From Pomphorhynchus laevis (lineage: Eukaryota; Acanthocephala; Palaeacanthocephala; Echinorhynchida; Pomphorhynchidae), in the NCBI GenBank assembly GCA_012934845.2, contig WNNJ02003544.1, positions 124,001 through 188,000 of the forward strand: a stretch of 64,000 nucleotides of DNA, written 5' to 3'. How positions within the stretch are numbered: position 1 is the stretch's first letter; each line of letters opens with the position of its first letter. The notes beneath the pieces were generated by a model. It saw only the letters and a list, made by a program, of their open reading frames with translations, had not been told where the DNA came from and did no database searches. A program made the translations under genes and the position numbers. This document shows, in pieces, positions 550 through 60,736 of this stretch.

Positions 550-3500
550 CTATAAAACTACCGTGGTTAATTGATCAATTTGAACTAACAAGTCGTTGAC
601 GAGTTTTATCGACCATAGAGATATTTAAAGAGCGGAGGCGTTTTAGAGAGTAATCATTCTGATCAACGTGCCAAGATTCGGTTAAACACAAAACATTTAA
701 AGATTTATGAAGTCCTCTTAAGCCAAGAAGCAAAAATCGTGATGACATCGGTTGAATTCTTAGCAAATCTAATCGAGATGCATAATCCAATCTCGCATTC
801 GAACATAAACGAGAACCTCGCCTTAGGACTGACTCTATATATGTCCTTTCTTGTTTGGTAACCGGGAAAGAATCCTGAATTGCATGATCTAAATGCGGAC
901 GAACCAACTTGTTAAACAAATTTCTAAAGACATTAGTGGTAATCTTAAGGAATGAGTTTTTTATAAAATATAGTGCACGAGTAGCGCTTTTAATTGCTTT
1001 TTTACTGTTAAGTTTAGTTTTTAATGATGCCTGCGCGATAATTCCTAAATCCCTATAATGTGATACTTCAGTAAGAAGAACATCGCCGATATGATATGTA
1101 AAATTACGGGATTTTTTACCCATCCTCAGAAGTATACACTTATCAACGTCAAGATGTAATCAAGTAGAGCGGCACCAATCATGGACTCGATCCAAGTCTG
1201 CCTGTAAAGATTTACAGTCATCAATATCTCGTATAGCAGTCCAAATGTTAAGATCATCTGCGAATGCCAAGTGAGTGTTCTCAATACTTAAGAGTAAATC
1301 GTTAAGGAACGTGATGAATAATAGGGGATCTAGTGCAGTACCCTGAGGGACACCTGTCGACATACCTCTTTCTGCAGGTGAAGACTCACCAACTCTAACC
1401 TTAAACGTACGCAATGAAAATTTTTTTAATCCAAGAGCAGATTACACGAGAGACGCCGTAGTGAATTAAGAGTGACACAGGACATTTATGTGGAACACGA
1501 TCAAAGGCTTTCGAAAAATCTAGAAATTAGACGTCAAGACAAAGTCCTAAGCTTAGTACTTCCATGTAACTCTCTCTCATGGTAAGCAAGTTAGATAGAC
1601 ATGAAGGACCTTGTCTAAATTCGTGTCGAGAATCTGTAAGAATGCTGTTAAAGTTTAGATGCTCGAGTAACCTTTTGGCAATAATTCGTTATAGTAATTT
1701 AGAGAGAACACTGGTCAAACTGATAGGGCGATAATCTAAACAAAAAGTCCCTGGCTGTTTTTTAGGGATTGACACAACAAATACTCATCTAAGTTTTCAG
1801 GATGGGTTCGAGTAATAGCCCACAGGGCATTGCACAGTTTCAACACTGCATGAAGTTCATGATCAAACCACTGAGGGCGAGTGTAATTAATGAAAGCTCT
1901 CCGTTTCGAAGCGAACTTATGTGACAAATTTAAGGAAACGTTATAAAGAATGGTCAGCAGATCTGAAACAGTAGTAAACCTATAACTATGAGAAACAATG
2001 TTGTAGAAAGCAGCTAAGAGATGTTGGGTATCCACCCGAGTTCAATTTCACTTCGGATAACCCAATTTTGACCTATAAACGATCTTGGACACTAATTTAA
2101 CGGAGAGAACACAGTGATCACTGTTACCTAGAGGAGTATAATACGCAATGATGTTGATATCTTCAATAAATCTTGTAAGAAGAAGATCTAGAGTAGCACC
2201 CTTGACATGAGTTGGCTCTCTACAATGTTGCACTAAAAGCAGGTCAACAAGAAATAAATCATGAAATTGTTTTGATACGCCGAGCAGGGTTGACACCCAT
2301 TCATATTCCAATCTACATTTGGAAGGTTAAAGTCACCTAAAAGGACAAATCGTTGGGATGAACAAAAATTAGATAAATAGTCCTTAAGCCTATCTGTTAT
2401 CAAAGTGAAATATAGAGATCTATAAACAATAAAAATATTTAATTTCAACAATTGATGATTACAATAAAAGACACTCATATGACCACTCAAAATCACAAAG
2501 ATATAATATATTTGATGTTAAGAGATCATGTCGAACGAATGATACAATTCATCCACCTCGCATACCAGGAAAACGATCCGCTCTTATTAACTTATAACCA
2601 ACAACATTAAACAGATTATCAGAGATGCAACTATGTAGTCAAGATTCTGAAATACAGAATATATCATAATGATTATCAGCAATATAATCGAGCAAGAAAG
2701 GAAATTGAGATGAAAGGCTTCGAACGTTTGAGTAACCAATATAAAGCGAAGCCTCTGATAACGTAAAGGTTTTGCCAGTTTTAGCATGTACCTCAGAAAA
2801 ATCAATAAAATCATCAAAATTGGAATCAGAATAAAACCCATTTCTCTAGTTTGGGAGAAGCGGGGTCCAACGTACAGATGGTCCCCACCGAACTATTTGA
2901 AAATTTCTTATGCATAGATTCGTCTCTCTTTTGCTTATTCTACCCTGTATCTCCTCACGAGACTTCCTCAATTTCAAACAATCACCAAAACTAAAGTCTC
3001 TCAGTATTCTTATAGTAGAATCTTTTTAGAGGTAACCACGATGAAGCAACATATTAGCGTGGTTAGCAGAACTTAAAACGACCTTCAATAAGCGAGGTTT
3101 CTCTGTGGTACGCTTCCCAAGACGAATCAAACTCCGAACTTGCAGCTTCATAGCTACATTATTATCTTCTTACTTAAGAAGCCTGGTAAATACTGCACGC
3201 GCACGAGAAACGTCTTCATCAACTCTTACTTGGGAATTGATCATACACTACTCTTCAATTCCATTTAAAATAACATTTATACTTCTGTCGTAATTCCGAT
3301 ACCTCTCTTTTCTTATATTGGCTGCTTTGCTTGAGAAATTGTCCTCGTCATCAACACTTGCATCACATGAAATTACGGTCTTTCTCAGTTCATAATTTGA
3401 ATCTCCACTATTTGAAGAATCTGTTCGTCTATGTTTGAAATCTCAGCTTATATTCTTTTGTCTAAAACGTCAACAGATTTATCAGGAAGGCGATCATTAG

Positions 3501-4040
3501 AGTTCTTTATATGAGTAACATCTATGTAGCTGCTTAAAATATTACTTTTAATTTCGCTAGCCTTATGAATATTATCTTGATGTTAAATGTTATTTGACAC
3601 CGAATGATTTGCATTGTCTCTATTTTTTGTCAAATTTGTACTGCGTTCTCTAGATTCGTGTAGGGTATGTGACAAATGTTCTTGATCCGAAGTTTCTATA
3701 GATTTGATGCAATTGTCTTCGTGTAATTCCGATAGAACCGTGTTCAAGATAATATCATGGTTGGCTGTCGATTGTTGAAAAGTGTCTTCACAAGACACCA
3801 TAAATTTATCATATGATGATTGTTATATTTGTTTAAATAGTATTTCATCAGTGTTAGTAGACACAGTACATCGAATTTTACGATGGGGACATTAGCAAAA
3901 TCCGCAGTAAAATGACATACCTTTCGAGCTCAAGTCCATTAATTTAGGAACCGTAATATGTGTCCATACGTCACAACCAACTGTAAAACATGCTACTTGT
4001 CTTTCCATAAACTCCAAAGTACTGTTGACAACATTATTAT
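550..4040 (-). mobile_element. Decayed CR1/jockey-like LINE, ORF1 plus ORF2
   Basis: A nearly complete non-LTR retrotransposon lies in reverse. From its 5' end, ORF1 starts with a PHD-like zinc finger (about 4030-3890; CDVWTH...FYCGFC.CPHRKIR) and a disordered stretch (3801-3583). A conserved ORF1 tail follows near 3090-2860 (PRLLKVVLSSANHANMLL, then RDFSFGDCLKLRKSREEIQ). ORF2 then shows an APE endonuclease (ADNHYDIFCISES at about 2680; LLGDFNLPNVDW at 2345-2310; NSDHCVLSVKL near 2110). Its reverse transcriptase has GVPQGTALDPLLFITFLNDL and FADD near 1360-1230 and a thumb/C-terminal region to 575. Many stops and frameshifts show an old copy. The 3' part recurs on the plus strand at 9.8-10.3 kb. 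Confidence 0.8.
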
Positions 4041-4690
4041 ACTTCACTTAATTAATTTTAATGTTCTATTTGACCATTTCGCAATTATGTGAATTATCTT
4101 GTCTGATTTAATTTCTCTTCGTTATTTGTAGCTTGTATAGTTTAAGTTTCATTATCCCGCAATCGTAGCGAGTTTAAGTTCTTAAAATTATAGTTTAAGT
4201 TCTTAAAATTTTTTGTTCTTTTTAAATTATAAAAATTTAAAAATTATATTTAGATAAAATGGATTGATCTTAACCATTTGATCTTAATTTTAATTGAAAG
4301 TTGAGTTGTAAATGCTTGTTAAACATACTTAATTCGAAAATTGAGTTGTAAATATTCTTTAATCGGACTTAAATAGAAAGTTTGGTTGTAGATATTTGTT
4401 AAATGATTTAAAAACGAAAATTGAGTTTTTGAATATGTATCGAATTTAAATTGAAAGTTGAGTGGTAAATGCTTGTTAAACGGATTTAAATTATCTAAAT
4501 AATAATTTAAATTATAATTATTAATAATTATAATTCAAAGTTCAGTATAATAAAAAACGACTGCGTCATCCATTAGCTGTCTTCTACATTCGGTTATGTA
4601 GTTGCTTTTGCCCCATGAGACCGCCTGATTTCCTTTATTTGACTTTTTGATTATTAATCGATGGAAACTGCCAAAAATTTAGAAGGAGAA
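4040..4690. repeat. AT-rich spacer with ~50-base minisatellite
   Basis: No gene is visible. Between about 4290 and 4490 a degenerate unit of roughly 50 bases occurs four times, each containing a version of GAAAGTTGAGTTGTAAATG followed by CTTGTTAAAC. The copies differ by several substitutions each. Confidence 0.5.
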
Positions 4691-4697
4691 AATCTAA

Positions 4698-6640
4698 TCA
4701 TATTGTAAGATAGGCGTTATAATTATTATATCTTTTTCCGAATATAAGATTAATTAACTTTACTAACGCTTCTTTAATATCTACTAAATCTAGATTTGTA
4801 TAAAGCGTACTAAAATCGTGCATATTTATATTCTGAAAATTTAATTCTTTTGTCTGTTCTAAAAATTCTTTTGTAGAATTAATACTGAAATAGTGTTTAG
4901 TACCAATATTAATTTCGATTACCTCGCAATATTTTTTAAAGTGTGCTTTAATTACTTTAAGTATTTTATTCATATAGACAGAAAGTGGTTTTAATGTACA
5001 TTTAAACGCACTACATATGAACCTAGGTTTTATTGGATTTTTATGTAATTTTGGATTCCAATATAATATAGGTATAGTTTTATTATCTAATTCAACCTTT
5101 ATACCCTTCTTATCTATTATAGAACAGTGACTTGTAATAATTGTTTCTAAACTTCAATCACTACGTTCATATGTTGTGTTTATATTTAAATCATTATAAT
5201 TAACTTCTTTCATTAGTATATCAAAATAAAGCTTTTTGCATATGAAGACAATGTTATTAGTAACTTTATCAATAGTTGTTATTATACAGTTTTCCTTTAA
5301 TATAGTAAGTTCTGTATATATCTTTATTAATTTTATCTTTGCTTTTATAATTGTTTGTTATTTTCATTTTATTTTTAATTTCATATATCTTAGATATATT
5401 CGAGCTTTCACTATTAATCAGCTTACTAAAGTAATCATTTAAGTTATTATATAACGAATTGTAAATTTTATTTATGTCGTTGTTATTATTTAATCTATAT
5501 TTATACCCTTTTATAGCATTTCCCTTAATTTACTGTTTTCAATTAATTCTAGATTATGGGTACATATATGTTCATTTATTTTATCGAAATTAAGACTTGC
5601 AATCACATTCAGTTTCTAGGATGTTTCTAATATTATCGTTACATATTTATTTTAATTCTTTATTATAATTACAAATGTTTGGTCCTAATGGTAGTAGGAG
5701 TTTATACCTTATTTTAGGAATATATTTGCTTAAATCTGATCCTATTATTTCTTTACTTTTAGAATTATTTAAAAGTCTACCTATATTTATGTTATCTATA
5801 CATTTATTAATGAAGTTTATGGTTAATGTATATTTTCTATTGTTATTATTAACATTTATTGTACGATTATAGTATTTTGTATTACAATAACTGTCTATTA
5901 TACAACTTAGCCTATCATAGTCGTTAATTAATTTTTGATTTATTGAACATATGATATCTTTAGAAAAACTTCTTATATTTACATAAAGATCTTTTAGCTT
6001 ATTATCTCTTAAAAGTTGTTTTAATATTTCTAATTGTTCATTTATATACATATCTTTTTTAATATTTTTAACTCTATTTTTCCTATTCCTTTTATCACCA
6101 TGACTTCTTGGTTTGCGTTTAACCGGATTATTCAATACCGTGTACCACGTCATTCAATCCTAATGGGTACATGGAATTAAGCGTTTTAATCCAAAAATCT
6201 TCTTTTTCTAATAGTTTTTGATTTAATATTGAAATGTTTTCTTCGATAATATGTTCTAAAATAAATAATTTACAGTTTTTAATATCATGTCCTATTAATC
6301 TCATATGTTTATGAAATATAGTTTGACTATTATGCTGTATATTATATATGTGTTGCCTAAACCTAGTTTTTAACATTTGATATGTTTTTCCTATATATTG
6401 CAATCCACATGTACATTGTATTAGATACACTACACCTGCGGTATTGCAGTTACAATTATTATTAATATTTAATGAAAAACATTTGTTTGTCGTATTACTT
6501 ACAATACAATTATTATTTATAACATCACAAACTATACAATTTTTTCTGTTACATTTAAAAGATCTAAAATTAAAATCATTAGTACTTACGTATTTTTCCA
6601 ATATGGTTGAGTACATGTAACTTTTAAGTCATAATTTTTA
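4698..6640 (-). mobile_element. Penelope-like element with N-terminal GIY-YIG (Naiad-type), decayed
   Basis: The first reading frame (6616-6128) is a GIY-YIG nuclease. It has paired cysteines (CNRKNCIVCD), then NCNC and GVVYLIQCTCGLQYIGKT, an arginine/histidine helix (TRFRQH) and the end motif DFWIKTLNSMYPLGLND. After a frameshift near 6135 a basic linker and palm lead-in follow (6153-5647, ending YKLLLPLGPNICNYNKELK). The reverse transcriptase core then appears (about 5240-4698): PILYWNPKLHKNPIKPRFI, KPLSVYMNK and motif A MHDFSTLYTNLDL. The YADD region is missing, so the 3' end is truncated. Canonical Penelope elements place GIY-YIG after the RT; the order here matches the permuted Naiad/Chlamys group known from invertebrates. 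It is not functional as it stands. Confidence 0.82.
6128..6616 (-). pseudogene. GIY-YIG endonuclease part of the Penelope-like element
   Basis: This 162-codon frame is the best preserved part of the element. The cysteine-rich N-terminal third (pairs near residues 21-31 and 53-55) is followed by the VVYLI...QYIGKT signature at about residues 62-77. The TRFRQHI helix follows at about 84-90, and a closing KEDFWIKTLNSMYPLGLND lies at about 138-156. The frame stops at 6128, while the same protein continues in another frame from 6153. A single frame change therefore separates the nuclease from its RT. Confidence 0.75.
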
Positions 6641-7900
6641 ACGTTGCTTTTTCGGTGTCGCCACCTAGTTTAGTTGACTCAGACTAAACTTACAACGGGC
6701 CATCCAGCAGCATCTGACAGGGGGCTGCCCTGCTTAAGGCGGTTGCAGGCTGGAACAAGATCTATAAAGATCTACCACCTTCACTCCACGCGCTACGCGA
6801 CCTAGCTATTGGCCATTACCTGGTCTCTTAAATGTGATCACGTGAAGCAGTTTACATTTTAAACTGTAAACACCTTAGGATGCAAACTTATCCCTTTTTT
6901 AAAAATTAATAATTTACCAAACTTGTTTAAATATAAGAAAAAATAATAGTAAAGTCGTAACCAATAATACATAGGTTCAGTGTTTCTGACAGTATTTCAG
7001 TATTTCGGTCATATTACCGGAAACCGATATTACAATGGTCATTAGCGGAAACTGATTTGAACTCGATCAGAAATCACGATCAGAAATTAGATTTAGCCAA
7101 GATAATCGATTGCGATCTGTGAAGTTTTTTACTTTGATTTCCTGTGATGCAACTTGTAAAGAGTCTTTGACTCACTGTGCCAAAGACAGATAAGCGATTC
7201 TAGTTATCTGATAAATTGTTCAATCGACTGATCAGATTGTTGACCCAGGTTATTGAGTTGATTGCGAAGAAAAATATCTCCTCGTTGTCTTACAAATGCA
7301 GCAGATAAATCAAAGATTGCTTTTGCGTATGAGTTGAGGTAATTGAATTCGGCAAGTTGAGGTAATTATATTCGTAGACATTTAGGTTTGTTAGATATCA
7401 GGTCATCTGAAGAGTCTGTCACAACTGAGTTATCACCTTGATTGGTGATATTTGAATAAATTATACCCAAAAAGTGTAACCGATTGAGGTATTTATTCAA
7501 ACATCTAAAAATGCAACAAAAGTTTTCAATAAACACAATTATATGACAATGTGTACAATGTTGAGAATCCAAATTTGTACTCGTTCAAATAATAATCATA
7601 ATAAATAATGTTGTTATATCACCGTTTGTTTCCCGTATCTTTTTATTTAAATATGTCATTGTAGAGATATAGCTGTCATAAGCATACACCTAAGCGGCGT
7701 CTCTAGAACAAAATAGCAAACTCTGAATAGATAGTTGTATTTTAATTTATAAAAATATATAGATAGATATATAATTATATAGATAGATATACAATCTATA
7801 TATAGATATATCGATAGATATAATATATTTTTGTATATATACAATTATATTTGATAAATATAAGATTAATTTGAATTTTCTGAATTATAATATAAAATAA
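6640..7900. other. GC-richer leader, then AT-rich spacer with ATAG microsatellite
   Basis: Bases 6640-6890 are clearly GC-richer than their surroundings and directly precede the Penelope-like reading frame on the minus strand, so they may be its 5' untranslated region or terminal repeat; this is inference. From 6890 to 7740 nothing recognisable was seen. Bases 7741-7815 are an interrupted ATAG/TATA simple repeat. Confidence 0.4.
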
Positions 7901-15200: not shown

Positions 15201-18200
15201 AACCGCCTCATATTCCACCGTCGCAATAGCTTCGCCGCTGCTTGTCCACGACTACCTATTCGTCGGTCCGAAGACCGCTTATTTCGCAGATTTCCTTAAT
15301 ATACAAGGGAAGTTCCTCTACCCGCGACACAGAGGACCCGCTCGATAGCTCCAGCTAAGCCCCGAGAGTAAGTAATAACAGTCAAGTCATTGACTGTTAT
15401 AAGTAATGATTTCAATAAAAATGTATCTTGTAACTTGACTGTAATGTCAAGTTACAAATAATACCATATGTATTACTATTATATAGTAATACAATATAAT
15501 ATAATGAATTGACATTATAATATATAGTAATATAATATGTTATATTATATAGTAATACAAGTTGGACTTGTATTCCAACAACTTTAATATAAATGTAACT
15601 TATAACTCTTTGGATATTATCTAGAATAAGATGAATTGACATTATAATATATATTAATATAATATGTTATATTATATAGTAATACAAGTTGGACTTGTTT
15701 TCCAAGTTGAATTGACATTATAATTCATATAAATATTAAACCACACGCAAAGAAAATACCACTTATTGTCCGTGTCCATATACACGAGTATAATGATAAG
15801 CTTTGCATAATCAGTATTCTGTGCCACGACTGTTCGATTTATTGCCGCTGTAAACTTTGTTACATTCAATGTCCACCTATTTCTCATCTGTTTCATTGCA
15901 CTGTCTTTTCCAATTTATTACTTAAACAAATCGATTTGCTACCTGCAGAACTTACCAAGACCCTTGATTCAAACCAGCTAATCCCAATGCAATAGCTAAG
16001 CTATCGAATAAGTGGCAGATAATTTAAATCCTAGTGAATAATTGTTGATTTCATGAATGCAAGCGTATTGTATTTGTATTTTATTATTTGTCTGTATGTA
16101 CATTTTTGTTTTACGACTCCATGCCGAAAGGCTACAGTGGTATAATTAATATTCATATATTATTTATTAATTCCAATCGCCGGATCCTTATTGTTAAGTT
16201 TGCTTTGTATCGTTTCCAGTTTCTGCATTTTTTCAAAGATACAAAATACGTCATCGACGTATCTTCACCACTTAACTAAATACGGTAGTTATTCAAAGAT
16301 ATCTTCCTATCACTTCGTCATGTAAAGGTCAGCTATTACAATAACTTAACAATAAGTATCCGGACACAGAAAACGGGGTATACAGTTTTGTACTCCTTTT
16401 TGGAACACTCATAGCCCAATTGAATACAAAATCCCAGCGGATTGGGCACTTCTAAATATAATACAACGTATTTGCTCAAATCTTATTGAGAAAAAATATA
16501 AATGTAGAAAATTTGAGGATATGCTAAAGACAGAGGCTTTCCTTAACTTATTATACGAAAGGCTTACCATCAGGCAAAAAACCTCCTAAATTGAATTCTT
16601 CAATTAATAGTAATACTGATAAGATCTATCTTGTCACCAAATTTGCTAGCGATCTTTGTACTAATCGTTTAGAAAGGACATGTCGGAAATCCAACTTGAA
16701 TATACAGTATTGTTTCACAAAAAGAAACCCACAATTTCAGACGTGAGCCGTCTGAAATTGTATACATGATACCTGGTTCTCAATGTCTAAGCAAATATGT
16801 AGGTCAAACTAAACAAGAATTATAAACAACAGTATATCAACACAAATACACACTCAAAAGTGGCGATAAATTGTCGGTATTGGTCAACCACTGCCCTGAC
16901 CTTTCCAGATTGTTACTCAAGCTTAATCGATTTGCTAGCTACTGACCATACCTATACAATTGACCCAAACAAACTAATCTCAATGCAATTGCTAAGTCAG
17001 GCAGTCGAGCAAATGACCGGTAATTCAAATCATAGCAAATGACTTTTGATTTCATGAATGTTTTCGTTTTGTATTTTATTATTTGTGTGTATATTTTTGT
17101 TTTCATCCAATGCCGAAAGGATAAAGTAGGCATAATAAATATTCTCATATTATTGACGAAATGTCAATTATCTTAAACAAACTCTTAAAAAAGAAATGCA
17201 TTATTATATTAACATTATCACTATTACATTATTATTGTAATGACCTCATTATTGACGTAATTATTAATCATTACTAATGTCATTTGATTCACAAATGACG
17301 TTCTCATGTAAGACAGGTGATTTAACATTGATACTTCACAAATACATTAGAGACATCTCGCGGGTTTTTGTGTGACGCTTGTAATAGTGTAGAAACCGAG
17401 CCCGCACTCTCACTAATTCACGATCATATAGTATTTAGAAATGCGACGACGATGATCGATGATTTGTGTGGTGCATTGTTTGATAGTAGGTTAAAGCGGA
17501 CGTTTCTTGACGTCGTCATATTTAATGTACATGCTCCTGCCTTTTCAAGTAAAGGTTGCAAGTCAGACTAAGCTTATCACGAAAGATGTAAAGTTTCAAA
17601 GTACAGTTAGAGAATATCAATAAATGAAATAAGCAATATTCTGTCCAGTAGATTTTTCTACTTCTGAAAGCGCAAGCCATAAAACGCGCAATGTACTAAG
17701 AATCATTGCGACTAAACTCTCTTGTAAGAGTCATACACCAAATAGCAAAGTCTTAAATCATATAAATAGTAAAATCTCATTTTATCTTATTCGAGCTGCA
17801 TCAGCCTGCCTGCGAGCTCGTCGTTCGACCTTAAATGAATATTGCAGAAACATCTTAAATTATTAAAGATGATTTAGAAAACCGCAATGATAACTTATTG
17901 TCCTACTTGCGGAAACCGTTATTGTTGTATTATTTTATTTTGTAAAAAATATTAATAAAAATATTGTAATATTATGTTATAATATTATAATATTATATAA
18001 TATATAATATTATAATACTATAATGTTATGTATAATATTGCATTATTATACATTTGCATTAATATAACATTTGCGTTTCGATGGGATTTTTATGAGTTGT
18101 TAATAAAAAATACTTTTTAATTGACTTACATGGAAATACTAGCGTGTTTTAGAATCATCTTAATGAGTTTGAGCAAATATTGCCTGAATGGCTTGACAGC

Positions 18201-21200
18201 ATTAAAGGTTCAACCGTACAGGATACATCTATATTTATTGAACTGGCGAGATATTTTGAAACTGAATTTCACATGGATATGAAAGCTTTGAATATCAAGC
18301 CTGCAAGCGTTTTAACGAGAGTATCCGAATATATTAATGAAGTTATTGCCTTTGTTGAAAAGATTATTGAACATGGTTTTGCTTACGTTTCGAACTCATC
18401 CGTATACTTTAATACTGAGGCGTATAAAAGCTCAGACACACATTCCTATCCAAAACTTTTACCCGAGGCCGCTAATGATTTGCGATCGTTGACTGAAGGC
18501 GAAGGAGCGTTACTCTCGTCGCAGAAAGCATTAAAAGATAAAAAGAACAAGAACGATTTTGTTCTTTGGAAAGCAAGCAAATCGGGAGAGCCTAGTTGGA
18601 CATCTCCATGGGGAAAGGTAATTTTGTATTTGACCGTCTAATCTTTGAATTTTGCTCTAATGTTTTGAGTTTCTGTTTAATGTAAATGTATTAAGTCAAA
18701 ATTGTTAATTTTGATTGTTAATTTTAAAGGGTTTTAAATGCTAGTTATTGTAAATTATTCAGTCATTTTAACAATTTATATATCATAAAAATAATATATC
18801 AAAACTCTAATGCTTTGATTTTATCTTTATCGATTTATATTCTTTAACTATATTCTTTTGATTTACCAAAAAATATATTTTTTATATATTACACTCAATA
18901 TACAAATTGAGTGTAATTTAAAATATTTAAAATTAAATTTTTTTACAGATATTTACAGTTAGTAAATTCACTGAAACGAAGAATGGCAGGGAAAAAACTT
19001 TATATTAAAAATTCAGCATTTTGATAGTTATTGATATCAAATCTTCAGGAAATATAATCAATTCTAATTGACATGTCTTCAGTTAATATACACAATACGA
19101 TAAATCTCATTTTTAAATAAACTATAATTTATTTTACAATAAATTATATTTGTTGATCTGCTGGTAGTTTGTTATATCATAAAAAACGTATATTTTATAT
19201 TAAGTAAAGATTAATTTAAAGAGGTCAGGATGATAATTTTATTTTGTGTAAATTGCTATTTCGTGCTTAGCAGAATTTTGAAATCTGTAACTTTTTAAAT
19301 TCGTTTCTGATTGAACAAATAAATTCTTGTTTTTAATTAGATTAATTGACTATTATATTAATTATTTTAATTTTTCATGTAATTTGAGATAACATTAAAG
19401 TATTCACCATCTAATTACTAGTTAGCAGACTCTTTTGGCAATATCCCATAGGAATCGTGTACAGTTAAAGAAAACATTGTAATATTCAATATTAAATATT
19501 TTAAACATTTAATAGTATTTTCAAAACTATTAATTTATTCATTTATTATTTATAATAAATTATTATTCATTTAAAAATTAACTAATTAAATTATTAATAA
19601 ATTATGCATCATCTTTATAATGCTATTTATATACAAAATATGTTTGTATATAATGATTTTGATACTATGTCTTCAATATTTTTAAATGTACCAATTAAAA
19701 ATATAAAATAAAGTTTATTTGTTACAACCCTTGTATACTTTGACTCATTGCATTGTGCTAGGGTCGACCCGGATGGCACATAGAATGTTCCGCAATGGCT
19801 TGCTCTATACTTGGCAAGGATATGGACATTCACTCTGGTGGAATTGATCTAAAGTTTCCTCACCACGAAAACGAAATAGCTCAAAGTGAGGTATTCTAAA
19901 TTTGCACATTCGATCGAATCTTGTATAAAATTCATTCTAGGCTGCATATAATTCAGATAACTGGGTTAAATACTTTCTGCACAGTGGCCACCTCACAATA
20001 CAGGGTTGTAAAATGTCAAAATCGCTTAAGAACTTTATAACAATTCGTAAAAGTCTGGAAATGTATTCCTTCAGGTATTTGCATTTGATTATGAAATTGT
20101 GTTTGATCCTGAATTTTGTTTTATCTTAAAATTTCTTAAAGTCAAATTTCGAAGACAAAACTAAATGAAAAATAATGTCAAGCTACCATTTGATGTTTCT
20201 TAAATATAAAGCTAAACAAAAAATCATCGCATTCATTGATTAAATATAACTGATCTTTTGATTTAATTTTAAATTTTCTTGCAAAATCAATAAACACTAA
20301 TTTATTTTTATATTTCACAAGCTACCACTACTCGGTAAACAAGAAAGCGAAATTTATTTTGAGCGGCAAATGCGCGCCAAAGCGCGCTTACAAGCCCACT
20401 GAGAATAATCAAATTTTCAAACTAATCAAGAAAAATAATCCCGTAGACGAATTCAACCGAAACGCGTTCAGTCGGTTCTTTCTGTTCGTTTATTTTGTCA
20501 GTTCGATCGTTCCGTCTAATTGATACACTTTATTGTCTATACTCCCTTCCTAACAAGATGAAAGTATAAGACTCCCTTCTTGTTACAGACTCCAAACAAC
20601 GTGTCTGTAACGTTTGATTTCGTTAACTACTAATTTTGGGAAGCTTATTTGGTTTAAATTTTAATGCGTTGATTTTAATACCTTAAGCCCGTTCGATATC
20701 ATCGTCTTTATATACACTTTAGTCGATAATATGCTTAGAATTTCCAGTCTAAAACGAACAAAATTTCTATTTTTCAAATGAAATTTTTTTATCGAAAGTG
20801 ATATTAAACCTACTTTAAATTAAGATTAAACACAGGTTGACACATTTGAAAATGTTTTTGATAATTCATGTGAGCATGTATTGGATAAATACGTTTACTT
20901 GAAAATGTTTTTGCATGTACTTTTTCTGCATCAACAGCAATAAAGTTTAATAAATGTAATCTTGATATTATTATATTGAATTATTAAATTATTGGATTGA
21001 ATTATTAAATTATTGGATGATTATTAGTATACATGGGATTGAATTAATAAATTATTGGATTGAATTATTGGATGATCATTAGTATACAATAGGCGATATA
21101 TGTTAGCAACATACGATAGTACTTAAGACTTTATTGGGTAACATTCTAGTAGCTCTTCACATTCTAGTCAGTTTTATCCCATTGCTTTAATGCAAATTCA

Positions 21201-34190: not shown

Positions 34191-34895
34191 TCTTCCGTGT
34201 TGCGTTAAGTTGTGAAACTTAAAACTCTTCATTTATTAGCATTTAATAATGAACATTGATATACATATTCAATATTAAATAAACTAACATTTTGCCTTCC
34301 GTTAATTTTCAAATGGAAAAATTTTTGATGTTCAGAAATTAAAGGGTTTCGATATTTTCTGGAATCCCTTGTTGCATTCGATGAAGGTAACAAAACGAGC
34401 GATATTTATAACCGCTTAGAATTTAATACAATTAATTAGAATTTAATTCCATACACCATTGTTTGATGATACTACAGTTACCGGCAAAATATAAAAGTTT
34501 GAATAAAAACAGCTCTCAAACTTTGAATTTTGGAGCAGATCCGAGATTCGAGCTGTCGCTCTCCGTGCTTGGCTTGCGCTCTTGACTGCTAGGCTACGAA
34601 TCCAGGATTACCAGATTTCACACAGTATATGAAACCTTCCATCATGATATCCAGAAACTGCATTGTCCGATATGCTTCTCTGGCATGCTTATTATAGATT
34701 TTATCGTATGAGATCATGAAGATCGATTGAAATCGGGACTGGTGATCCTTTGATGGATGCTTATTTATGTAATGAATAGTTGCTAGGTCACACGAGGTGA
34801 CTTTCGCATTGACAACCAGCTACAGAATTCTTCCTTCATGATATCCAATTCCATACACCCTGACTACTAACGGCGCCATTGCCACAACCGTTTTC

Positions 34896-34941
34896 GTTTC
34901 GCCCGCTTTTTGCCACATGTTGGTAGCCCCGGGCTCGTCAG
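34896..34941 (-). ncRNA. Hammerhead-like core, array unit 1
   Basis: On the minus strand CTGACGA is followed by GCCCG, a 24-base loop, CGGGC and GAAAC, so the conserved boxes bracket a perfect 5-base-pair stem II. Upstream AAGGC (34977-34973) can pair with GCCTT to give stem I. Stem III is weak. Confidence 0.55.
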
Positions 34942-35338
34942 AAGGCTGACTACCAACTCTTCGCCTTTTGAAATTTGACTTATCCGAGATTCGAGCTGTC
35001 GCTCTCCGTGCTTGGCTTGCGCTCTTGACTGCTAGGCTACGAATCCAGGATTACCAGATTTCACACAGTATATGAAACCTTCCATCATGATATCCAGAAA
35101 CTGCATTGTCCGAGATGCTTCTCTGGCATGCTTATTATAGATTTTATCGTATGAGATCATGAAGATCGATTGAAATCGGGACTGGTGATCCTTTGATGGA
35201 TGCTTATTTATGTAATGAATAGTTGCTAGGTCACACGAGGTGACTTTCGCATTGAAAACCAGCTACAGAATCCTTCCTTCATGATATCCAATTCCATACA
35301 CCCTGACTACTAACGGCGCCATTGCCACAACCGTTTTC

Positions 35339-35384
35339 GTTTCGCCCGCTTTTTGCCACATGTTGGTAGCCCCGGGCTCGTCAG
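35339..35384 (-). ncRNA. Hammerhead-like core, array unit 2
   Basis: Same core as the unit 443 bases to the left, unchanged in both boxes and in stem II. Confidence 0.55.
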
Positions 35385-35851
35385 AAGGCTGACTACCAAC
35401 TCTTCGCCTTTTGAAATTCGACTTATCCGAGATTCGAGCTGTCGCTCTCCGTACTTGGCTTGCGCTCTTGACTGCTAGGCTACGAATCCAGGATTACCAG
35501 ATTTCACACAGTATATGAAACCTTCCATCATGATATCTAGAAACTGCATTGTCCGATATGCTTCCCTGGCATGCTTATTATAGATTTTATCGTAATAAAA
35601 ACGCATTGACATCGTAATAAAAAAAACATTGACATCGTAATAAAGACGCAATATCAAACTGCATTGTTCGAGAAGCATCTCGGACAATGCAGTTTCTGGA
35701 TATCATGATGGAAGGTTTCATATACTGTGTGAAATATGGTAATCCTATATTCGTAGCCTAGCGGTCAAGAGCGCAAGCCAAGTACGGAGAGCGACAGCTC
35801 GAATCTCGGATAAGTCAAATTTCAAAAGGCGAAGAGTTGGTAGTCAGCCTT

Positions 35852-35897
35852 CTGACGAGCCCGGGGCTACCAACATGTGGCAAAAAGCGGGCGAAAC
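35852..35897 (+). ncRNA. Hammerhead-like core, array unit 3
   Basis: CTGACGAGCCCG and CGGGCGAAAC occur as in the left arm but on the plus strand, preceded by GCCTT, which can pair with AAGGC at 35826. Confidence 0.55.
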
Positions 35898-36196
35898 GAA
35901 AACGGTTGTGGCAATGGCGCCGTTAGTAGTCAGGGTGTATGAAATTGGATATCATGAAGGAAGGATTATGTAGCTGGTTTTCAATGCGAAAGTCACCTCG
36001 TGTGACCTAGCAACTATTCATTACATAAATAAGAATCCATCAAAGGATCACCAGACCCTATTTCGATCGATCTTCATGATCTCATACGATAAAATCTATA
36101 ATAAGCATGCCAGAGAAGCATCTCGGACAATGCAGTTTCTGGATATCATGATGGAAGGTTTCATATACTGTGTGAAATCTGGTAATCCTGGATTCG

Positions 36197-36250
36197 TAGC
36201 CTAGCAGTCAAGAGCGCAAGCCAAGTACGGAGAGCGACAGCTCGAATCTC
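36197..36250 (+). promoter_or_regulatory. tRNA-like internal Pol III boxes of the 443-base repeat
   Basis: TAGCCTAGCAGTCAAGAGCG resembles a tRNA A box, and AGCTCGAATCTC, about 40 bases later, resembles a B box (GGTTCGAANCC). Spacing is as in tRNA genes, but the arms do not pair well enough for a real tRNA. Equivalent boxes lie at about 35754-35807 (plus) and in the left arm on the minus strand. Confidence 0.6.
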
Positions 36251-36294
36251 GGATAAGTCAAATTTCAAAAGGCGAAGAGTTGGTAGTCAGCCTT

Positions 36295-36340
36295 CTGACG
36301 AGCCCGGGGCTACCAACATGTGGCAAAAAGCGGGCGAAAC
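36295..36340 (+). ncRNA. Hammerhead-like core, array unit 4
   Basis: Identical core 443 bases after unit 3. Conservation of both boxes and stem II in all four units argues against chance. Confidence 0.55.
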
Positions 36341-36596
36341 GAAAACGGTTGTGGCAATGGCGCCGTTAGTAGTCAGGGTGTATGGAATTGGATATCATGA
36401 AGGAAGGATTCTGTAGCTGGTTTTCAATGCGAAAGTCACCTCGTGTGACCTAGCAACTATTCATTACATAAATAAGCATCCATCAAAGGATCACCAGTCC
36501 CGATTTCAATCGATCTTCATGATCTCATACGATAAAATCTATATATATTCCTTTAATTATAATTTAACTAGATGGGAAAAGTAATTCATTTGTTTA

Positions 36597-57659: not shown

Positions 57660-60554
57660 TCACGAGGACGAAAAGTGTGCAGAAGTTGTGGGAACGTTAC
57701 GAAATGACGATATCGAATCTACTTTGCGCAAACTCCATGTAGAAAGAACTGAACATGAAAACAGATGGAGAAGGTCACAACATGAAAGTCCACAGAAACG
57801 ACAGTAACAGTCAGAATTTCTTGAATGACAAGGCAACCTGATCATACAAAATTTGTCATGGTAACCATGAGTAGATATTCTCCAAACAAGCGGTCGGTTT
57901 GCATTAAATGGCATTTTCCAATTATTCTGAAGAAATACCGGAGTGCAATAAATAGCAGGATCAAGTTTTGCAACAGAAATCTGCGTATTGCTGAGATGGA
58001 TCGAGAGTGCCGGTGTTATAGGCAGATTAAACGAATTTGCAAAGGTATACGCACACGATGAGAGTTGAGATAACGCTGACACTAATGTCGAAGAGGTCAT
58101 GGGTGAGAGCCCTGTGATACGTTTAATATACCTCCATTGAAGCGAATCAAATTTGCGGAAATTAGCAGTAGTAAGATCAAGCCAGATCGCCTGAATACCA
58201 TATGTCAATATAGGAAGGATCATCACCTTAAAGAATTTTAGGGCACCGTCGAAGGACAAATTACCTATGTTTCTGAAGGAATACATTCTTTCAGTTGCCT
58301 TGACACACTTGTTGGAAATATGTTTCGAGAATGTCCATTTCGAATTTAAAACAATACCAAGGTAGGAATACTCACAACAAAATTCAAAATTGCTATTTCG
58401 ATATTGCAATGAGTCATCACCGCGTAGACGGCCACCCTTCCTGAATTTTATAGCTCGGGACTTATCTAGATTTACCACTATAAAATTTTGTGTGCAGTAG
58501 GTATCTAGACGATTCAATGACATTGTTGCTGAATCAATATCATGAGAAAGTATGACTAAATCATCTGCATACATTATGCAGCTGGATCTACCGCTTTGAC
58601 AAACAAAGAAGGGAAGGTCACTAACGAATAGCGTGAAAAGCAGCGGGCTTAAAGGATCCCCTTGTAACACCCCTCGATTTTGGATCAAGTGTTGTGACAA
58701 TTGCAGTCCATCCGAAATACGAATTTCATTAGGCGACAATATGGCTGCAAGTAGTTTTAACATTGGACCGCGTATGTGAAACTCGAAATGAAGCTTGCTT
58801 AGTAAGAGAGACCGATTCACAGAGTCAAACGCCTTTGTAAAATCAATAAATAACGCATGCATGCATGAATTTGCTGCGAAACGCTGTTTTACCTTTTCTC
58901 TTAAAGTAGAAATCGCCCCAACTGTAGATCTACCTGGTCGAAATCCATATTGTTCATTCGCTATACGTGAACCACATGATCGCATAATACGACGGTGAAC
59001 TAGCGAAGTCAATAGTTTATAGGCATGATTTGTTAAGGCTATTCCTCGATAAGAGTTCGTAGATAAAGGATCTGTTTTGCCTTTATACATAACTTTTATG
59101 GTCGCTTCTTTCCAGGACTTAGGAATAGGACATCCAAACAGAATAGAATTGTAAAGCCCCAACCAGAATGGCTCTAATATATGTAGAGACTGTTTGATAT
59201 GCTCTATGCATAACCCATCAGGGCCAGCCGCCTTTCTTATCGATATAGAAAATACACAAGCTCTTAACTCCTGAAGAGTAAATGGAGAATTTAAGATCTG
59301 ATCAATGTCATGATTTATTTCCGTAAAGGAGAATTGTGAAAGTAATAAAGGATACGAAGAAGAAACATATTCATTCAAGGGATCGTACAAAACAGCCCTG
59401 AAATGATTTTCCCACTTATCAAGAGGAATCTTAGATGATAATGCAAGTTGTCTAACTTTCAACTTCCAAGGGTATATTTCAGCATCCTTTAAAATACGTT
59501 GTTCTTCGGTCTTAAAATGCTTGTCTTTCAAACAATTAATAGAAGATCGATAGATCAACTTTAAGTCCCTATATTCCTTACTTTCGCGTGCTCTGAATGT
59601 CGGAAGTTTATGCATAGCAATGAGTTTACTACGAAGTTGACGCAAATACAGAGGAATTTTGAATGGTGAGCACGTCGGTTTCTGAGTAGATGCAAAGCAA
59701 CATTCTAAGAGTGTATCTCGAACTTCGAGGTACCTCGAACCATCAGTACCAAGCAAATTAGTTGTAAGCGATGATAATCTAGGGTTTCTTAGATCTAGTC
59801 TACGACTCCGCTGTGAGATCGACTGTACGAGTGATGACGTCATCACATCATCAAGAATGAGCTTGAAAATGACTGGCTTATGTTTTCTGCGTAAAGACCA
59901 TTTGCTTTCTAGGCATAGGCGAGCTGATGTTACTTTGCAGTTTGTAAACAAAATATCTATACAACTTCTTCCCCGATCACTTTCGTAGGACCAACCCTCA
60001 CTAGGGTAGCTAAGCTGAATGCCGTACGGAGTTAACGAATTGACAATGTGCTTTATTTTATCCGACAATGGACTACTTACATTGGCATTAAAGTCACCTG
60101 CTATAATTATAGGGTGATTTTCTGGTAGAAAGCCTATGATATCTACTAAATCAATGTTAATGTCAGAAACATCAATAGTTGGATTGAAATAACAACCCAC
60201 GATTGAAATATGTGGGGTATGAACGATAACGCTAAAATCACTGGAGCTTGCATTCCAGGTCGAAATGATTGGCTTAACACCCACTACGATGCCTCCTATG
60301 GGACGACCTCGAATAGGGGCTTTTGCTAATTTTTCAAATACGTAAAAACCTTTTATGGATATCGGGTTACAGCAAAATGTCTCTGTTAATACTATGATGT
60401 CATATCCTCTTAAAAAGGAGTCAAATCCTTCAGATAAAAGCCTATCAAGACCTTCTGCATTAAAAACCAAAACCTTCACAATTGAGGCGGAATCAGAACT
60501 CTGGTTAAGAGCCCGTGAACTAGTCGGGTGTAGACCAACAATGTTGGTCTTCAC
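57660..60554 (-). CDS. Intact LINE endonuclease/reverse transcriptase (ORF2)
   Basis: An uninterrupted 964-codon protein nicks target DNA and copies its own RNA. The APE endonuclease spans residues ~25-235: N32, E58 (VLTE), AGDFNAN at 152-158 and SCID at 197-200; the final SDH is altered to RRKHKP with H225 kept. The reverse transcriptase spans ~435-745: KAAGPDG 441-447, EQYGFRPGRST 534-544, motif A FIDFTKAFDS 569-578, motif B GVLQGDPLSPLLF 628-640, motif C YADD 662-665, then YLGIVL. A CCHC knuckle, CRFCGLSCCDLLHLFSC, lies at 918-934 near the C-terminus. No RNase H domain is seen. An in-frame stop lies 34 bases upstream of the ATG, so no longer start is available. A complete ORF in a region of decayed relatives suggests a recent insertion. 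The clade (R1/jockey-like or other APE group) is uncertain. Confidence 0.93.
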   Translation of the reverse strand: MKTNIVGLHPTSSRALNQSSDSASIVKVLVFNAEGLDRLLSEGFDSFLRGYDIIVLTETFCCNPISIKGFYVFEKLAKAPIRGRPIGGIVVGVKPIISTWNASSSDFSVIVHTPHISIVGCYFNPTIDVSDINIDLVDIIGFLPENHPIIIAGDFNANVSSPLSDKIKHIVNSLTPYGIQLSYPSEGWSYESDRGRSCIDILFTNCKVTSARLCLESKWSLRRKHKPVIFKLILDDVMTSSLVQSISQRSRRLDLRNPRLSSLTTNLLGTDGSRYLEVRDTLLECCFASTQKPTCSPFKIPLYLRQLRSKLIAMHKLPTFRARESKEYRDLKLIYRSSINCLKDKHFKTEEQRILKDAEIYPWKLKVRQLALSSKIPLDKWENHFRAVLYDPLNEYVSSSYPLLLSQFSFTEINHDIDQILNSPFTLQELRACVFSISIRKAAGPDGLCIEHIKQSLHILEPFWLGLYNSILFGCPIPKSWKEATIKVMYKGKTDPLSTNSYRGIALTNHAYKLLTSLVHRRIMRSCGSRIANEQYGFRPGRSTVGAISTLREKVKQRFAANSCMHALFIDFTKAFDSVNRSLLLSKLHFEFHIRGPMLKLLAAILSPNEIRISDGLQLSQHLIQNRGVLQGDPLSPLLFTLFVSDLPFFVCQSGRSSCIMYADDLVILSHDIDSATMSLNRLDTYCTQNFIVVNLDKSRAIKFRKGGRLRGDDSLQYRNSNFEFCCEYSYLGIVLNSKWTFSKHISNKCVKATERMYSFRNIGNLSFDGALKFFKVMILPILTYGIQAIWLDLTTANFRKFDSLQWRYIKRITGLSPMTSSTLVSALSQLSSCAYTFANSFNLPITPALSIHLSNTQISVAKLDPAIYCTPVFLQNNWKMPFNANRPLVWRISTHGYHDKFCMIRLPCHSRNSDCYCRFCGLSCCDLLHLFSCSVLSTWSLRKVDSISSFRNVPTTSAHFSSS

Positions 60555-60736
60555 CGCGACACCATGTTCAAGTCATATAGGAGTAGATGGACAGAGAGGT
60601 GACGATTCCATGGTTGAAGAAGGGTCTTCACCTCGCAGCTCAACGTGGGAGATTTCCGAACTAATCGGATTATGAGGAACAATATGAACTTGAACAATTC
60701 TGTTTTGTCGAATTCTAAACGATTTTTGTGGCTCAT
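60555..60736 (-). other. Likely 5' leader of the intact LINE
   Basis: GC-richer sequence upstream of the ORF, partly open in the same frame before the stop near 60580. It ends abruptly at about 60736, where a short tandem repeat starts, so the element's 5' end may lie there. Confidence 0.4.

Follow-up and report, generated by a model that had tools for sequence, protein, structure and literature searches.

The locus consists of two arrays of a 443-bp tandem repeat lying head to head in the window, the 64-kb stretch of Pomphorhynchus laevis DNA analyzed here (Table 1). Tandem Repeats Finder returned a period of 443 in each arm, exactly as the preliminary description had read it, and the inverted arrangement claimed there was matched by 98% complementarity between the arms over an 872-nt stretch. 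The spacer is slightly longer than the 67 bases first given, at 75 nt by the program's boundaries. No open frame of ≥100 aa was found inside the arms or between them, so the element encodes neither RT nor GIY-YIG. A transcript through both arms had been expected to form a hairpin of ~1 kb, which is not supported as the main point of the locus; the inversion recurs at many loci and more plausibly results from the way the element inserts. MicroRNA-precursor rows of an Rfam scan lay across the inverted repeat and were discarded as its products. The window copy is atypical of its family, with its left outer end and central joint away from the usual sites. Unit positions are numbered from window 35700 in the right arm (unit 1). 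An exon of a cysteinyl-tRNA synthetase gene, a LINE and a fragment of a Penelope-like element (PLE) are also present in the window.

Table 1. Features of the window, in order of position (arrows mark junctions)
Feature	Position	Strand	Details
PLE fragment, N-terminal GIY-YIG	4703..6670	-	very abundant young PLE; full frame ~908 aa
Cysteinyl-tRNA synthetase gene exon	18153..18641	+	Pfam PF01406
Left array	34539..35594	-	2.4 copies of 443-bp unit, 98% matches (Tandem Repeats Finder)
Type I hammerhead, left arm outer copy	34857..34946	-	predicted cut 34862/34861
B-box-like, left arm copy	34988..34996	-	placed by unit mapping
A-box-like, left arm copy	35029..35039	-	placed by unit mapping
Type I hammerhead, left arm inner copy	35300..35389	-	predicted cut 35305/35304
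Spacer between arms	35595..35669	.	75 nt; about three ATCGTAATAAAAACGCATTGAC-like repeats
Right array	35670..36543	+	2.0 copies of 443-bp unit, 97% matches; stops at 401 site, then TATATATTCC
A-box-like, right arm copy 1	35754..35764	+	unit 55-65
B-box-like, right arm copy 1	35797..35805	+	unit 98-106, one mismatch
Type I hammerhead, right arm copy 1 (stem I to stem I)	35847..35936	+	predicted cut 35931/35932
First reverse-transcription start site (putative)	36014..36031	+	unit 315-332, CTATTC[AG]TTA↓CATAAATA; internal here, array end in (TA)n at other loci
Type I hammerhead, right arm copy 2	36290..36379	+	predicted cut 36374/36375
Second start site (putative)	36526..36543	+	unit 384-401, CATACGATAA..CTATA; 3' end of right arm
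LINE	57660..60572	-	970-aa open frame with endonuclease and reverse transcriptase domains

Two complete hammerhead cores were found in each arm, and all four carry the perfect stem II, GCCCG/CGGGC, reported earlier. As drawn, stem I is GCCUU/AGGGU; the core CUGACGA is followed by stem II with a 24-nt loop and then GAA, and stem III is formed by A-U and C-G pairs plus an inner helix, AACGG/CCGUU, beyond an internal loop. The cleavage site, previously considered uncertain, is now predicted at GTC↓A (GUC↓A in RNA), unit 232/233, and the 5' ends of insertions agree with it independently (see below). A type I hammerhead descriptor, with thresholds fixed after the unit had been read, matched only the four window units on both strands of the 64 kb and 0 of 4000 Markov sequences. 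The Rfam covariance models proposed as a check gave no hammerhead match on the 443-bp unit. With E up to 1 they also gave none at L070 and L071, two loci with other pattern-matched cores, and since these cores were missed too, this silence counts for little. No pairs with double changes were seen in the predicted ribozyme stems and hence no covariation. Paired cells made up 95.5% of the predicted stems versus 23–42% when the stems were slid, with shuffles scoring equally well, and an alternative fold that pairs part of the core is more stable (-30.1 vs -13.6 kcal/mol).

The sequences upstream of the hammerhead resemble a Pol III-type promoter. The A box at unit 55–65 fits TRGCNNAGYNG fully and the B box at unit 98–106 fits GWTCRANNC with one mismatch, these being what we take to be the A- and B-box consensus sequences. 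Such a pair arose in 35 of 5000 Markov sequences of equal make-up, and the boxes noted earlier in every unit can be retained. Sm-alpha joins a SINE-like head to a type I hammerhead in satellite-like tandem copies with a unit of 335 bp. The 443-bp unit, longer by comparison, would have the same head, ribozyme and tandem copies, a likeness of architecture alone, which supports the parallel with Sm-alpha and animal retrozymes first drawn for this locus. Sm-alpha is named as a schistosome SINE-like element in PMC8490949.

At least 193 matches to the family were found in the host assembly (249 Mb, 3242 contigs) when the unit was searched genome-wide, as had been advised; the count is a lower bound from the part of the candidates that was scored. 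The sample comprised 33 loci fetched for the 443-bp family, four more and the window, taken from the best matches in one genome, with old copies under-represented. In 38 sources, 149 of 156 segments kept CTGANGA, GAAAC and the cut triplet together by a strict pattern, the count adopted here (152 by a looser one). Nearly all copies thus retain these boxes, the opposite of what had been named beforehand as counting against a ribozyme. The sole common variant within CTGANGA was N7, the core base that hammerheads leave free (C in 65 and T in 39 of 104 full units, 34 sources). The other ribozyme positions with a minor form of ≥5% (174, 207, 218 and 219) are all unpaired in the drawn structure. A divergent member, L066 (79–85% identity), keeps the core and has a stem II G-C changed to G-U. 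In part of the L019 array (1871-5414), units of two sequence types take turns, a pattern that amplification of a dimer would produce.

These properties compare closely with the metazoan non-LTR retrozymes of Cervera and de la Peña (2020; PMC7229834), which are likewise non-coding tandem units of 150–450 bp with a type I hammerhead and many dispersed arrays. Here the repeat is dispersed, non-coding and 443 bp long, and the hammerhead in each unit is recognized by the descriptor and core conservation rather than by an Rfam score or covariation. Known from its DNA alone, the element has the sequence features of that group. In contrast to the retrozymes described in PMC7229834, it has Pol III-like boxes and a large-loop ribozyme missed by Rfam, and its insertion ends are resolved: the 5' end lies at the cut, the 3' end at either of two sites in (TA)n, and arrays occur head to head.

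The 5' breakpoints were mapped in 31 sources among 37 loci and the window (n = 60). Seventeen, from 12 loci, fall exactly at unit 233, where 0.14 per position would be expected if they were uniform; some loci contribute two or three of these from fold-back pieces. Other recurrent positions were 232 (two), 234 (two) and 165 (four). More than one base from the predicted cut lie 39 of the 60, of which 15 fall within the ribozyme (units 148–231). Joints such as ACACCCT↓AGGGTGT at L018 bring two of the ends at the cut head to head. By the author's account the placing of the cut at GTC↓A preceded the mapping of the array ends, the order being undocumented and the first written record later than the mapping; read with that limit, the insertion 5' ends lend the predicted cut independent support. 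A triplet-based breakpoint control was confounded by polymorphic sites and dropped.

Ends at the cut bear on the nature of the RNA template. In the published model RT travels several times around a circular template, and circular RNA is reported for other animal retrozymes (PMC7229834). Multi-unit arrays of near-identical units, differing by a mean of 0.77% (median 0.23%) within arrays versus 2.17% between loci, would suit such copying, although this difference does not decide between a circular and a linear template. The insertion 5' ends at the cut argue against a closed circle, which lacks such an end, unless the ribozyme reopens it, and so does the mixing of haplotypes in the arrays of L013 and L014. 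We regard a circular template as having slightly less than an even chance. The published model has to account for these 5' ends, whether by circle reopening or by linear multimers.

At the 3' side, 52 array blocks were examined, four of them truncated by a contig or fetch edge; 20 stop at unit 401/402 and 15 at 332, within TA repeats that are mostly long but short in some, e.g. L010, L030, L034 and the window. The last base necessarily derived from the element is unit 324, closing ..CTATTCGTTA, or 393, closing ..CATACGATAA, an interval of 69 nt. Junction words to (TA)n occurred genome-wide 129 times for site 332 and 40 times for site 401, with 0 in reversed controls. The 3' ends were taken from array-block mapping and these pattern counts; the 5'-breakpoint script finds just two at 332, its filter comparing (TA)n with an A/T-rich continuation and so under-counting. 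Hairpins with a 4-bp stem and a 6–7-nt loop lie 11–14 nt past all five start sites tested, the PLE long end excluded; they were noticed post hoc against a background of 322 of 1223 positions under looser limits and serve as a lead only.

Such ends are hard to reconcile with ordinary satellite DNA in which a hammerhead-like core is present by chance or as a vestige and inversions arise by recombination. The lack of an Rfam match would fit a satellite, and unequal crossing-over can lengthen homogeneous arrays such as the long one at L023 (17–18 copies). However, the arrays end 5' at one base and 3' at two sites in (TA)n, occur at many unrelated places, and conserve the core with N7 left free; we judge a satellite origin very improbable.

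Genome-wide, the type I core pattern gave 4510 matches versus 35 for its reversed control, in several families, and one place can yield two matches. A second hammerhead tandem repeat, of ~463 bp, ends in (TA)n at either of two sites separated by 55 nt (87 and 66 matches) and is probably a second retrozyme. Its assignment as the pLTR of a PLE was withdrawn, as it repeats at ~463 bp and the RT fragment at L070 is 92–95% like the PLE family of L069 and L012. In the translation of the PLE a YVDD motif was read, with a C-terminal GIY-YIG domain after it (19.5 bits, below the Pfam cut-off of 22.6; E 0.0012); the PLE also has a small hammerhead-like core of its own. Its ends are ..GTTTAACGA↓(TA)n and, 55 nt on, ..AATATTCA↓(TA)n, with 16 and 50 matches and 0 in reversed controls; they were read in sequence at L012 and L069 only, the remainder being pattern counts. 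At these two loci the PLE adjoins retrozymes and shares a (TA)n tract with them. Retrozyme and PLE are alike in combining a (TA)n target with two alternative 3' ends, the pattern looked for in a passenger. Facing ends within 300 bp formed 15 pairs among 359 listed ends versus 0.04 expected if evenly spread, and nine of the 15 join two different families. A shared preference for (TA)n would explain these pairs, which thus point to common target choice and not to common events.

Further hammerhead families include CTGATGAGTCATAGTGATGACGAAACG, tandem at ~305–323 bp, CTGATGAGGCTTCTCAAAGGCGAAACG, and a third whose stem III is long and perfectly paired (example loci in the host assembly: C10:13992-15666, C22:20415-23571, C13:891-7965, C73:8163-8749). 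At L071 (C19:269600-271700), two copies of another family lie head to head round a short palindrome and belong to no tandem array seen there. The PLE fragment in the window belongs to a family with an N-terminal GIY-YIG domain, an order we take to be of Naiad/Chlamys type, and many copies are 97–99% identical in that domain. It was set aside as a helper since the 3' ends of fetched copies (..AGCTGATTTAAT) lie outside (TA)n and no pattern-matching hammerhead core was found within the 3.1 kb that its copies share.

The two putative start sites are usually used together in head-to-head inserts. One outer end was found at each site in 24 of 27 scorable inserts (p 2.5e-5 versus one half, presuming equal usage of the sites): 12/14 for the retrozyme, 8/9 for the 463-bp family and 4/4 for the PLE. 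The same site was used twice in the other three. The count drew on 100 listed of the 129 site-332 matches, and fetched loci were classed by eye; contig-edge cases were left out, as were the window, L014, L024, L026 and L067, whose outer ends are not both known sites. At L017 and L027 one end lies ≤5 nt from site 332 without clean (TA)n, and in L039 an internal deletion precedes the end at site 401. The four loci with full units in both arms are L015, L024 and L032, where the arms are nearly alike (0–0.5% difference), and the window, where they differ by 2.9%. The inner ends of both arms at L018 fall at the same base, and short palindromic fold-backs occur at some joints (L031, L036, L069). At C1072:19773-21019, left uncounted above, one end of the 463-bp family and one of the retrozyme lie head to head at a distance of 1.2 kb and may stem from a single insertion that used two different RNAs.

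Two other origins for the inversion were considered. The tRNA-like boxes and the LINE frames in the window would suit a SINE moved by a LINE and inverted by twin priming of the LINE-1 kind. In that process a single RNA is split, whereas here both arms span the same unit region, the L018 arms share one inner base, the outer ends lie at two different start sites, and the target and two-site plan are common to retrozyme and PLE; movement by a LINE appears quite unlikely. For Adineta, PMC3846280 describes PLE copies that are commonly head to head, with a tail on one of the inverted pLTRs, and proposes self-priming on an antisense template. The fold-backs at L031, L036 and L069 are in keeping with that proposal, but it predicts neither 5' ends at the ribozyme cut nor different start sites at the two outer ends (24/27), and it seems unlikely to account for the present inserts, if less so than a LINE.

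PLEs with pLTRs and a tail (PMC3846280, PMC11167929) are among the closest parallels. Like the retrozyme, they have hammerhead motifs, an AT-rich target and two RT start sites separated by an optional tail, and where copies lie head to head the tail is present on one of them. The retrozyme differs in coding for no protein, in targeting (TA)n, in its Pol III-type boxes and in the interval between start sites, 69 nt versus about 30–40. PAc is the first PLE protein for which activity in vitro has been reported (PMC11167929). It cleaves both strands and extends them, with a preference for AT-rich DNA, and initiates reverse transcription internally at two adjacent sites, the interval being the PLE tail. 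In the same study, insertion in vitro is independent of hammerhead cleavage, the start site shows no strand difference, and the ends of RNA reads do not coincide with the cut. The asymmetry and the 5' ends seen here are therefore either new or element-specific.

We consider it likely that the 443-bp unit belongs to the animal-type retrozymes, being non-autonomous and Sm-alpha-like in architecture, that (TA)n-targeting PLEs most likely move it, and that its inverted arrays are joined cDNA pairs primed from the two DNA strands. Multimers would be transcribed from the internal Pol III-type promoter formed by the A and B boxes, and each unit would be cut at GTC↓AGGGTG by the type I hammerhead. The RT/GIY-YIG protein of a (TA)n-targeting PLE would act as helper and open (TA)n tracts. 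Reverse transcription may then be primed inside the retrozyme RNA after unit 324 or 393, a few further bases being matched by TA, and proceed to the hammerhead-made 5' end. Where both DNA strands prime, usually one per site, the two cDNAs would be joined head to head to give inverted arrays. Self-cleavage, Pol III transcription, PLE action in trans and two templates per event are what we infer from the junctions and motifs.

This reading is favored by the 5' breakpoints at the cut (17/60), the intact cores (149/156) with N7 free, the 35 of 52 3' ends at two sites in TA repeats, and junction words that reversed controls lack. The YVDD/GIY-YIG PLE beside retrozymes, the use of both sites in 24/27 inserts, the alike arms of L015, L024 and L032, and the cleavage and extension of both strands by a PLE protein in vitro, with internal starts at two nearby sites (PMC11167929), also favor it. 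It is weakened by the lack of an Rfam hammerhead and of covariation, the stabler alternative fold, the 39/60 5' breakpoints off the cut, the behavior of PAc, the sub-cut-off GIY-YIG match, and the three of 27 inserts using one site twice.

More tentatively, and with odds falling just short of even, we hypothesize that the PLE machinery performs two-ended, two-template target-primed reverse transcription. A dimeric complex would open palindromic (TA)n, each strand priming on its own RNA at a different internal site, and the cDNAs would run to the hammerhead-made 5' end and join head to head. Retrozymes would be passengers, and the ribozyme would set the 5' end. No earlier report tying retrozymes to PLEs, or the cut to insertion 5' ends, was found in a literature search that reached few subscription papers. 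The junctions in this one genome link the retrozyme to (TA)n-targeting PLEs and the predicted ribozyme cut to the 5' ends of insertions. Head-to-head PLE copies, for which another explanation was given in 2013 (PMC3846280), would have a simple cause in the same process.
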